A stretch of 36,557 bases of DNA from positions 1 to 36,557 of the forward strand of contig NZ_JAGQEK010000005.1 in assembly GCF_024346075.1 (NCBI RefSeq). Reading direction: 5' to 3'. The notes below the pieces were generated by a model that worked only from the letters and a program-made list of their open reading frames with translations, did no database searches and was not told where the DNA came from. Source of the stretch: Synechococcus sp. Cruz CV12-2-Slac-r. GTDB lineage: Bacteria > Cyanobacteriota > Cyanobacteriia > PCC-6307 > Cyanobiaceae. Positions 29,730 through 33,051 of the stretch are shown one piece after another (the first letter of the stretch is position 1; each line of letters starts with the position of its first letter). The translations under genes and the position numbers were made by a program.

Positions 29730-30224
29730 ATGAGATTAGCTAAAGCCTTGGTTTCTGGGTTACTTGTTCTTGTTCTTTTGTTCTCTCCCAGCCCGGCCCT
29801 TGCTATGACAGCGCCTGAGTTGCGCGGCGCAAAATCTTTACAAGATCTCAGCCCTGATATGCACGGAAAAGATCTGCAGCAAAAAGAATTTCTTAAGGCA
29901 GATTTAAAAGGTTTTGATTTTTCGAATGCTGATCTAAGGGGAGCTGTATTCAACGGGAGCCAGTTGCAAGGCACAAATTTGCAGGGGGCAGATATGCGAG
30001 ATGTAGTTGGATTTGCAAGTGGTTTCCAGGGATCTGATCTACGTCAGGCCCGCCTTGATCGCAGCATGCTGCTCCAAAGTCATTTTCGCGATGCACTCAT
30101 TGAGGGAGCTGATTTTTCAGAAGCCGTGTTGGATCAACCTGAGCAAAAGGCTCTTTGCGCAAGGGCAGCAGGTACAAATCTCCTCTCGGGAGTTAGCACA
30201 ACTGAAAGTTTGGGTTGCGCTTAA
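29730..30224 (+). CDS. Secreted/lumenal pentapeptide-repeat protein
   Basis: The 164-residue precursor has a signal peptide with a clear Ala-Leu-Ala site after residue 25 (VLLFSPSPALA). The mature part carries pentapeptide repeats of the A(D/N)LXX type from about residue 55 (KEFLKADLKGFDFSNADLRG, AVFNGSQLQGTNLQGADM) to about residue 125, forming a short right-handed beta-helix. A Cys pair near the C-terminus (LCARAAGTNL, SLGCA) could form a disulfide. In cyanobacteria such proteins occur in the thylakoid lumen or periplasm, and their functions are mostly unknown. The riboswitch begins 6 bases after its stop. Confidence 0.88.
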   Translation: MRLAKALVSGLLVLVLLFSPSPALAMTAPELRGAKSLQDLSPDMHGKDLQQKEFLKADLKGFDFSNADLRGAVFNGSQLQGTNLQGADMRDVVGFASGFQGSDLRQARLDRSMLLQSHFRDALIEGADFSEAVLDQPEQKALCARAAGTNLLSGVSTTESLGCA

Positions 30225-30230
30225 AAATGC

Positions 30231-30371
30231 GGTGATAGGGTTCAGCTTCGGTTCCTTGGAGATCAGCCCAGGGAGGTAACGGGGAAAGTTCGGTGAAAAG
30301 CCGGCACTGTCCCGCAGCTGTAAGAGGTTTGGCTATGCCTTATCTCAAGTCAGAACGCCCGCCGAATCACC
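30231..30371 (+). ncRNA. Cobalamin riboswitch upstream of hupE
   Basis: The region has the ordered core of the adenosylcobalamin aptamer: GGGGAAAGTTCGGTG near 30279, CCGGCACTGTCCCGCAGCTG at 30301-30320, and the B12 box AGTCAGAACGCCCGCC at 30348-30363. The closing P1 helix is GGTGAT at 30231-30236 pairing with ATCACC at 30366-30371. It lies between the pentapeptide gene stop and the hupE ATG. B12 riboswitches repress cobalt uptake and B12 genes when the coenzyme is bound, which fits the downstream hupE and CobW-family genes. Confidence 0.92.
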
Positions 30372-30379
30372 CTTCATCC

Positions 30380-30398
30380 CCGGCGCGGACCGGCTTTT
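30380..30398 (+). terminator. Possible riboswitch expression-platform hairpin
   Basis: CCGG at 30380-30383 can pair with CCGG at 30390-30393 around a 6-base loop, followed by CTTTT at 30394-30398 and the hupE ATG at 30403. It is a short stem, so attenuation is only suggested. The same bases cover the place where a ribosome binding site should be, and no purine-rich Shine-Dalgarno is visible, so translational control is equally possible. Confidence 0.35.
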
Positions 30399-30402
30399 CT
30401 GG

Positions 30403-31038
30403 ATGCTTAAAGATTTATTTGTTAAGCCTGTCGCTGCCAAGCGAGTCATTTCTGCGTTAGCCGTTTGTGTGTTGCTGCCTTTCTGCGTTGCAACTCCAGC
30501 GCTCGCCCATCATGTGATGGAAGCATTTCCGATGAAGCCAAGCCCGTTTACAGGGCTTCTTAGCGGTTTGCTGCATCCTGCCCTTGGCGTTGACCATCTA
30601 CTTTTTCTTATGGCGATTGGCCTTGTGGGGCTGCGTCAACAGTTCCGATGGGTTATTGGCTTGTTAGCAATTGGATTGATCGGGGCGCTCCTCGGTTTGG
30701 CCTGGCCAAACAGCCTGCCTGGAGCTGAGGCCTGGATCGGTATTTCACTCGCTATAGAAGCATTGGTGTTGCTGGATCGCTTACCCAAAACACTTTTGCT
30801 ACCTGCCATTGGCTTGCATGGTTTTGTTCTAAGCGCTTCTGTATTGGGTTGGGAGCCAACTCCGGTAATTTTTTATCTGTTTGGTTTACTTATAAGCCAG
30901 GGATTATTACTTTGGATATCATTAAAACTGGTAAAAAATCTTTGGTCTAATTGGGGTTCAGCTGCGAAATTAAGAATTTTTAGTGGCATCTTGTTTGGCA
31001 TCGGCAGCAGCCTTATTTGGTCAACATTGGTGCCATAG
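30403..31038 (+). CDS. hupE: HupE/UreJ family metal (cobalt/nickel) permease
   Basis: HupE/UreJ proteins are nickel or cobalt permeases. The 211-residue precursor has a signal peptide cleaved after ALA35, leaving an N-terminal His-His (HHVM), and the signature HPALGVDHLLFL at residues 58-69. About six membrane segments follow. The B12 riboswitch immediately upstream points to cobalt rather than nickel as the cargo; this is inference, but B12-regulated HupE has been proposed from comparative genomics. The CobW-family gene starts 2 bases after its stop, so the two are one transcription unit. Confidence 0.9.
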   Translation: MLKDLFVKPVAAKRVISALAVCVLLPFCVATPALAHHVMEAFPMKPSPFTGLLSGLLHPALGVDHLLFLMAIGLVGLRQQFRWVIGLLAIGLIGALLGLAWPNSLPGAEAWIGISLAIEALVLLDRLPKTLLLPAIGLHGFVLSASVLGWEPTPVIFYLFGLLISQGLLLWISLKLVKNLWSNWGSAAKLRIFSGILFGIGSSLIWSTLVP

Positions 31039-31040
31039 GC

Positions 31041-32081
31041 ATGGATAAAACGCAGCAGCGCCGCATACCCGTAACGGTTATTACTGGATTTCTTGGCGCC
31101 GGTAAAACCACATTGCTGAGGTATTTGCTCAGGCAAACAAAACAACGCCTTGCGGTTGTAGTTAATGAATTTGGTGAGGTTGGTATCGATGCTGCTTTGA
31201 TCAAGGGTTGCGCAAGCTGCGATGGTGAACCAGCCCCAGTGATCGAGCTAGCAAATGGCTGCCTTTGCTGCACAGTTCAGGACGACTTCTTACCCACCAT
31301 TGAAAAGTTACTGGCCAATCCAGAACCCCTTGATGGGATTGTGATTGAAACTAGTGGTCTCGCACTACCGGAGCCCCTCCTCCAAGCCTTTCAATGGCCT
31401 CAGATTAAACATCGAACGCTGGTGAATGGCGTAATTACGGTGGTAGACGGAGAAGCCCTTGCTGCAGGTTCAGTTCTTGGCGATCTGGAGGCGGTAGAGC
31501 AGCAGAGGATCAATGATCCAAGCCTTGATCACCAAGATTCAATTGAAGATCTATTTAAAGAGCAATTAGAACAAGCTGATCTTGTTTTGATCTCCCGGGC
31601 AGATCTTTTGAGCCCCGATGCACTGCAACGCGCTAAGGATTACCTCGCTGCGCAATTGCAAATTGTTCAACCCCAAAAGCAGGCTCCTTGTCTAGCGATT
31701 GCGAATGGTGAAATATCTGCAGATCTATTGCTTGGCTTGATGCGGCCTTCCTTGCCAGTTGAAGAGGAAGAACATAGCCACAGCCATCCTGAACTTCTTG
31801 CTGATTCGCTAAGTATGCAGGGGCTGTGGAATCGCGATGGATTAGAGCAAATCTTGCTGGAAACAGCAATAAATCCAATGGATTTACTGCGATTAAAAGG
31901 ACGAATTCCGATAAATGGGAAGGCTTTACCTTTGCAGGTTCAAGCTGTGGGGAGGAGGTTGAACATGTGGTTTGAAGCAGATGGGCTTCGGGCAGATCAA
32001 CTGGAACTGGTTTTAATTGGCGGCAATCCAAATAGCAGCCTGCTTAGATCAAGCCTGGAGGAGCTCGAGGTTAAAAATTGA
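31041..32081 (+). CDS. cobW: CobW-family GTPase (COG0523 metallochaperone)
   Basis: COG0523 G3E GTPases deliver metals; the CobW subgroup is linked to cobalt insertion in cobalamin synthesis. The 346-residue protein has the P-loop GFLGAGKTT at residues 16-24, the metal site CLCC at residues 74-77 preceded by CASC at 57-60, ETSGLALP near residue 110, and SRAD near residue 184 in the NKxD position. A short acidic/His run EEEEHSHSHPE near residue 250 could bind metal. Its place after a B12 riboswitch and hupE supports cobalt rather than zinc. ATG at 31041 is used; an upstream in-frame start lies inside hupE. Its stop overlaps a TTG that could start purS. Confidence 0.88.
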   Translation: MDKTQQRRIPVTVITGFLGAGKTTLLRYLLRQTKQRLAVVVNEFGEVGIDAALIKGCASCDGEPAPVIELANGCLCCTVQDDFLPTIEKLLANPEPLDGIVIETSGLALPEPLLQAFQWPQIKHRTLVNGVITVVDGEALAAGSVLGDLEAVEQQRINDPSLDHQDSIEDLFKEQLEQADLVLISRADLLSPDALQRAKDYLAAQLQIVQPQKQAPCLAIANGEISADLLLGLMRPSLPVEEEEHSHSHPELLADSLSMQGLWNRDGLEQILLETAINPMDLLRLKGRIPINGKALPLQVQAVGRRLNMWFEADGLRADQLELVLIGGNPNSSLLRSSLEELEVKN

Positions 32082-32143
32082 ATACCCCAACAGCCCCAAA
32101 TGGCAGCCTCAACTGCGAGGATCCCCATACACGCAATGTTTCA

Positions 32144-32401
32144 GTGCTGCGTTTCGTTGCTCGGGTTCAGGTGCAGCTGCGCCCCTCGGTTCTAGATCCT
32201 GCTGGCGAGGCTACGAAAGCAGCAGCAAATCGTCTTGGAATTTCCGGTTTACAAAAACTTCGCATTGGTAAAGCAATAGAGCTGGAATTAGAGGCAGCAA
32301 ACCGAGAGGAAGCCATGGCATCAGTTGAATTACTTAGTGATCGACTCTTGGCAAATCCGGTAATTGAAAATTGGTCTGTAGTGCTGGAGCAAATGGAATG
32401 A
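32144..32401 (+). CDS. purS: Phosphoribosylformylglycinamidine synthase subunit PurS
   Basis: PurS is the small structural subunit that joins PurQ and PurL in the fourth step of purine synthesis. From GTG at 32144 the protein is 85 residues, the normal size, beginning [20 protein letters not shown] and containing [20 protein letters not shown] and [14 protein letters not shown]. The frame is open back to a TTG at 32078 overlapping the cobW stop; that longer form would add 22 residues without family support. No strong ribosome binding site favours either. The stop overlaps the purQ ATG (ATGA). Confidence 0.88.
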
Positions 32402-33051
32402 CAATTGGAATTGTTGTTTTCCCTGGTTCCAATTGCGATCGCGATTTAGCCTGGGCATTAGAAGGCATATTAAACATTCCTACACGATTTCTCTGGCACG
32501 AAAATACAAGTATTGACGGAGTAAAAGGAATAATTTTGCCTGGTGGATTCAGTTATGGCGACTATCTAAGATGCGGTGCTTTGGCAAGTTTTGCTCCGCT
32601 CTTAAATGAGGTGAAGGATTTCGCAGATACTGGCGGACCGGTATTAGGGATATGCAATGGTTTTCAAATTCTTACTGAATTAGGCCTTTTGCCCGGTGCG
32701 TTAACTAAAAATCAGAATTTACATTTTATATGTGAGCCATGTGAACTTTTAGTGAACGAGGCTAGTAATACATTCCTGAATGGCTATGCTAAGAACGAGT
32801 TGATAAATCTTCCAATTGCCCATGGGGAGGGGAAATATCATTGCGATTTGGATACTTTTGATGACCTACAGCAAAATAACCAAATAGCACTTAGTTATAG
32901 TAATAATCCAAATGGTTCACTTGCAGATATAGCTGGAATATGCAATAAAAAAGGCAATGTTCTTGGTTTGATGCCACACCCTGAGAGAGCCTGCGACCCG
33001 ATCTTGGGTGGAATCGATGGTCAAAGATTATTAAAAACCTTCATGGGTTGA
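32398..33051 (+). CDS. purQ: Phosphoribosylformylglycinamidine synthase subunit PurQ
   Basis: PurQ is the glutaminase subunit that feeds ammonia to PurL. The 217-residue class I amidotransferase has nucleophile Cys86 in GICNGFQIL, oxyanion-region [13 protein letters not shown] near residue 50, and the His/Glu pair in MPHPERA near residue 195. It begins [16 protein letters not shown], diagnostic for PurQ. An ATGA overlap couples it to purS; purL is not in this window. It is notably AT-rich compared with the preceding genes. A strong terminator follows at 33076. Confidence 0.97.

Follow-up and report, generated by a model that had tools for sequence, protein, structure and literature searches.

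The window analysed here, a stretch of 36,557 nucleotides from Synechococcus sp. Cruz CV12-2-Slac-r, carries a cobalamin riboswitch followed by genes for a HupE/UreJ-family permease and a COG0523 GTPase, set between a pentapeptide-repeat protein gene and purS-purQ. The host is a freshwater picocyanobacterium that belongs to the same genus as Synechococcus lacustris, as judged by the genus grouping of matching contigs. The features of the locus are as follows.

29730-30224, plus strand: pentapeptide-repeat protein gene, 164 aa (PF00805, 57.4 bits)
30232-30380, plus strand: cobalamin riboswitch aptamer (RF00174, 57.3 bits against a gathering threshold of 31.5)
30375-30405, plus strand: putative outer helix, CAUCC (30375-30379) with GGAUG (30401-30405), from a single-strand fold
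30380-30393, plus strand: expression-platform hairpin, P13-like, CCGG-CGCGGA-CCGG, supported by stem covariation
30403-31038, plus strand: hupE, HupE/UreJ-family permease, 211 aa (PF04955, 60.4 bits; cut-off 23)
31041-32081, plus strand: cobW, predicted CobW-clade COG0523 GTPase, 346 aa (PF02492, 176 bits; CobW_C, 40 bits)
32078-32401, plus strand: purS (PF02700, 88 bits)
32398-33051, plus strand: purQ, overlapping purS (NF002957, 315 bits)

The aptamer was identified with the Rfam Cobalamin model, which it matches over the full span of 1-189 (E 8e-12), and no second match was obtained in the genome assembly, which is 86.8% complete in 237 contigs. The original prediction of a complete cobalamin aptamer is therefore borne out, and the strength of the match supports control by a B12 riboswitch. 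Regulation by the end product, also proposed at the outset, stands in its general form, with one amendment concerning what is sensed. Pseudocobalamin is the form that most cyanobacteria make (PMC8123684), and the ligand is therefore probably adenosyl-pseudocobalamin rather than B12; in one survey all cobalamin riboswitches responded to cobalamin and pseudocobalamin alike (PMC9600662).

Downstream of the aptamer lies a hairpin of 4 bp whose loop reads CG(C/A/T)GGA or CTCGGA; it was found by its loop motif, with pairing not required, in 62 loci comprising 40 distinct sequences. A Shine-Dalgarno-like GGA sits within the loop, and across loci the hairpin and its GGA stand 5-15 nt ahead of the hupE AUG; the spacing of 13 nt from GGA to AUG in the window is above the usual. 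Among the 40 distinct sequences 94% of the cells in the stem are standard pairs as against 81% in shuffles, and there are 33 two-sided changes as against 11, neither value being matched by any of 2000 shuffles that ignore kinship among the sequences. Shifting the stem partner by one or two columns reduces pairing to 58% or less. The L5 loop of the aptamer, CUGUCCCGC, is complementary to the GGA of the hairpin loop, and a kissing loop between L5 and L13 is a feature of cobalamin riboswitches (PMC9600662). By analogy, we infer the same contact here, and we go no further because both L5 and the GGA are invariant and so carry no covariation signal for it. In the window and its close relatives only, the outer helix encloses the platform hairpin and covers the hupE start codon; it is kept in loci L133, L137 and L139 and, with one mismatch, in L128. 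Folded for minimum free energy, the window leader was no more stable than shuffled sequences (z 0.4), and a terminator scan revealed neither a riboswitch-associated terminator nor an excess of terminators over shuffles. Translational control is the best reading of this leader.

The riboswitch, hupE and cobW were originally described as a two-gene unit, which proves too narrow. The aptamer begins 7 nt past the stop of the pentapeptide gene, and at the other end cobW overlaps purS by 4 nt (32078-32081), if purS starts at the TTG at 32078. The pentapeptide gene heads a conserved string whose order is the same in 48 hupE-cobW loci, and in 43 of these 48 the aptamer starts between -7 and +34 nt from the pentapeptide-gene stop. 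Such a position at the very end of the gene leaves scant space for a promoter of the riboswitch's own. In 57 relatives that have no hupE at this locus, the distance from the pentapeptide gene to cobW is mostly about 10 nt, and no RF00174 match was present in the 15 loci of this kind that were searched. Inside the pentapeptide gene-cobW string, riboswitch and hupE are either both present or both absent, like a single block. This block-wise distribution, together with the position of the aptamer at the end of the pentapeptide gene, makes an intercistronic riboswitch, or one transcribed from within the pentapeptide gene, the probable reading.

The downstream end of the string is more variable. 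Among the loci compared, the overlap of cobW with purS occurs only in the window and in Synechococcaceae bacterium Bin_79_3 (G105; L128, L002); elsewhere the two genes, where both are present, are separated, in the relatives examined by a conserved gene of about 100 aa on the minus strand. That gene was not found in the window genome or in Bin_79_3, both of which are incomplete assemblies. It is possible that purS-purQ are co-transcribed with the B12-controlled genes, and internal promoters are allowed as well. A bolder proposal is that the riboswitch moves with hupE as an intercistronic cassette into and out of the pentapeptide gene-cobW unit, thereby toggling B12 control of cobW, and that in the pair formed by the window genome and Bin_79_3 loss of the intervening gene joined the purine-synthesis genes purS and purQ to the B12-controlled message. 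We regard this as speculative and on balance doubtful. In a quick tree of HupE, the states beside cobW and alone are explained by few changes (5), and the tree favours neither gain nor loss of the block.

Gene order was compared across picocyanobacteria by combining the locations of the riboswitch, HupE and CobW in a family sample of 151 genomes, and the hupE-cobW order recurs. Of the 135 family genomes for which a CobW was listed, at least 47 have riboswitch, hupE and cobW in succession, 41 of them through listed HupE matches and 6 more with HupE confirmed by tblastn. None of the hupE-cobW pairs listed in the 151-genome sample lacks the riboswitch. The nearest loci by CobW identity are those of Bin_79_3 (91%) and S. 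lacustris Tous (70%). At least about 37 further family genomes have riboswitch and hupE away from cobW. Outside the family, 122 cyanobacterial genomes were compared. In at least 31 of them hupE lies at most 1.1 kb upstream of cobW, and a riboswitch is listed no more than 2 kb ahead in at least 8 of those; in at least 16 further genomes of the 122, cobW has a riboswitch at most 2 kb upstream and no hupE is listed in the interval. The arrangement is thus common in cyanobacteria and built of known parts, and being widespread it is not special to the window genome.

These comparisons bear on whether the riboswitch controls cobW at all. It could govern hupE only, with cobW expressed from a constitutive promoter or transcript of its own and outside B12 control. 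The family genomes in which riboswitch and hupE stand apart from cobW fit this idea, as do the hupE-less relatives in which cobW directly follows the pentapeptide gene with no riboswitch in the 15 loci tested; the existence of both types of locus means that cobW need not be B12-controlled. We nevertheless consider this explanation unlikely for the window. As claimed originally, two bases separate the hupE stop (31038) from the cobW ATG (31041), and the gap is mostly short in other loci. The order of hupE ahead of cobW recurs in the at least 31 genomes outside the family, and no sigma-70-type promoter match was obtained between 30100 and 32450, although such scans are weak evidence. In addition, the at least 16 genomes with a riboswitch upstream of cobW and no listed hupE suggest that B12 control of cobW as such has been selected for.

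The assignment of the first gene to hupE, made in the original prediction, agrees with its PF04955 score and with the motif HPALGVDH, which fits the family signature HPxxGxDH. The protein has a putative signal peptide, and its residues H58, D64, H65, E109 and H139 are invariant in 46 relatives, all HupE proteins from hupE-cobW loci; no HupE was found among solved structures. In Synechocystis, a mutant in HupE recovers when given cobalt or methionine (PMC7689651), and riboswitch-linked cyanobacterial HupE proteins have been assigned to cobalt (PMC7689651, PMC4284471). By analogy, the window HupE is a probable cobalt importer, as had been proposed. It might instead carry nickel, or nickel together with cobalt: HupE/UreJ proteins near hydrogenase or urease genes are thought to be nickel carriers (PMC7689651), and PF04955 does not distinguish metals. 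We judge this highly unlikely for a HupE that is linked to a B12 riboswitch and to cobW, the more so as the Synechocystis mutant backs the cobalt assignment of riboswitch-linked family members and the two strong-scoring HupE/UreJ proteins tested form a separate clade.

Several family genomes contain a second, divergent clade of riboswitch-linked HupE with 18 members in our set (L207, L208, L210-L213, L215-L223, L225-L227), and some of these genomes also carry a hupE-cobW copy. At three of these loci (L208, L225 and L226, in G005, G113 and G090) two adjacent cobalamin riboswitches point away from each other on opposite strands, each towards a hupE of its own.

The second gene, which starts at the ATG at 31041 and whose stop ends at 32081, encodes a GTPase with the P-loop GFLGAGKTT, the motif NEFGE, CLCC at residues 74-77 and the cysteines C57 and C60. 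The original prediction had singled out the CLCC and a His-rich patch; both exist, but the patch, HSHSH at residues 245-249, is short, with 3 His. All CobW proteins in a 2009 survey had a stretch of at least 4 His (Haas et al., PMC2770081), a minimum of which the window protein falls short. The orthologues of Prochlorococcus MIT9302 and L137 also have 3, so this minimum is not strict in the clade. The best curated model is TIGR02475 (CobW) with 329.5 bits, 2.6 below its cut-off of 332.1, and we therefore call the protein CobW-clade rather than a member of the TIGR02475 equivalog; several Prochlorococcus-type CobW orthologues fall below the cut-off as well. ZigA and a YjiA-type model score 130.9 and 97 bits. 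In a maximum-likelihood tree, built with few reference sequences and containing some long branches, the window GTPase joins the cobN-adjacent CobW proteins of Azospirillum and Pseudosulfitobacter, plus a Calothrix CobW, and this group is split with 100/100 support from ZigA, from the other COG0523 protein that this genome encodes and from a YciC-like protein. CobW is reported to possess a further cysteine pair, C56/C61, that is absent from zinc-binding homologues (Young et al. 2021, PMC7895991), and the equivalent pair C57/C60 is present in all aligned picocyanobacterial CobW and not in zinc-type proteins. Clustering with zinc-responsive COG0523 members, which would have spoken against the original prediction, was not seen. 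Altogether the sequence evidence identifies the window GTPase as CobW-clade and not zinc-type.

That it is a zinc-homeostasis protein merely adjoining hupE is hardly credible. In its favour are the mixed nature of the COG0523 family, a score just short of the TIGR02475 cut-off and the short His patch, but the tree, the model scores and the cysteine pattern in effect rule out a zinc-type identity, a separate COG0523 protein that groups with zinc-type members is encoded on another contig, and no Zur-box-like match was found in the window, a weak test that gave no match near the zinc-type paralogue either. This second COG0523 protein (G000:C222:4796-5320; L082) has a long His stretch and lacks the CobW cysteine pair. 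The G4 motif of the window protein is SRAD (residues 185-188; 31593-31604); G4 is SRxD or a close variant in picocyanobacterial CobW, and NKxD or [ST]KxD in other aligned COG0523 proteins.

Elsewhere in the genome, the late-insertion cobaltochelatase CobN is encoded in parts split over two other contigs (817 and 728 bits), and the B12-dependent methionine synthase MetH is found as well. A broken metH with an internal TGA was considered and rejected, as the TGA appears to be where the gene naturally stops before the reading runs on into the next frame.

Computation established the riboswitch and its genes, the hairpin with its covariation, the identity of CobW, the co-occurrence of CobN and MetH and the conservation of the string. 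We propose that the locus is a B12-feedback-controlled cobalt supply unit, with a probability of about 0.82; in this proposal we infer the ligand, the direction of control, the coupling, the specificity for cobalt and the hand-over of the metal. We envision that at low levels of adenosyl-(pseudo)cobalamin the GGA ribosome-binding loop beside the hupE AUG would be free and HupE translated, and translation of cobW would probably be coupled to it, as its start lies 2 nt past the hupE stop. Co(II) would enter the cell via HupE, and CobW with GTP would bind it by its cysteines and raise the supply to CobN. Once the cofactor is plentiful, the aptamer would close, its L5 would pair with the loop of the hairpin, and less HupE, and hence less CobW, would be translated.

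A direct flow of cobalt from HupE to CobW and on to CobN, which extends the original idea of a GTPase that takes cobalt from HupE and delivers it to B12 synthesis, would fit the precedent of the Azospirillum order cbtB-cbtA-cobW-cobN, in which transporter, cobW and cobN follow one another. CobW is known to bind Co(II) together with Mg-GTP and to increase B12 synthesis when cobalt is low (PMC7689651). Alternatively, CobW may draw on cytosolic cobalt whose level HupE has raised. Against the supply unit we counted the location of cobN elsewhere, the 13-nt spacing of the GGA, a fold no better than shuffles, the missed TIGR02475 cut-off, the 3-His patch, the SRAD G4 motif and the invariance of L5 and the GGA.

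A metagenome survey of 2007 listed B12 elements ahead of cobW and hupE (PMC2211319), and the 2009 survey reported that in cyanobacteria cobW does not cluster with B12 genes and is not under riboswitch control (Haas et al., PMC2770081). We found no published description of the hupE-cobW pair in cyanobacteria in a literature search of mainly freely accessible journals. Our findings extend B12-riboswitch control of cobW broadly to cyanobacteria, in contrast to the 2009 survey, which covered far fewer genomes. They also provide a testable model in which picocyanobacteria match cobalt uptake and delivery to the demand for the cofactor, and the presence of the riboswitch-hupE block ahead of cobW in some lineages but not in others is a natural contrast by which the effect of this control can be tested.

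Synechococcus lacustris Tous and Synechococcus sp. RCC307 possess the same pentapeptide gene-riboswitch-hupE-cobW string with the conserved hairpin; strings of their type keep the minus-strand gene or a gap before purS, whereas the window has neither. The CobW of Rhodobacter capsulatus (PMC7895991) shares with the window protein the GTPase motifs, a CxCC and an upstream cysteine pair, although in the window protein the pair is C-x2-C rather than C-x4-C, and this protein also differs in its 3-His patch and SRAD G4. In Proteobacteria cobW is often controlled by a B12 riboswitch (PMC2770081). The Azospirillum cluster resembles the window in that CobW adjoins a cobalt transporter, but there the transporter is CbtAB and cobN belongs to the same cluster, whereas in the window genome cobN lies elsewhere. 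Also close is the B12-riboswitch-controlled hupE of cyanobacteria, including slr2135 of Synechocystis PCC 6803 and its marine counterparts, where a riboswitch likewise precedes a HupE/UreJ permease assigned to cobalt (PMC4284471, PMC7689651). Compared with these, the window has cobW only 2 nt further on and its aptamer directly behind another gene.
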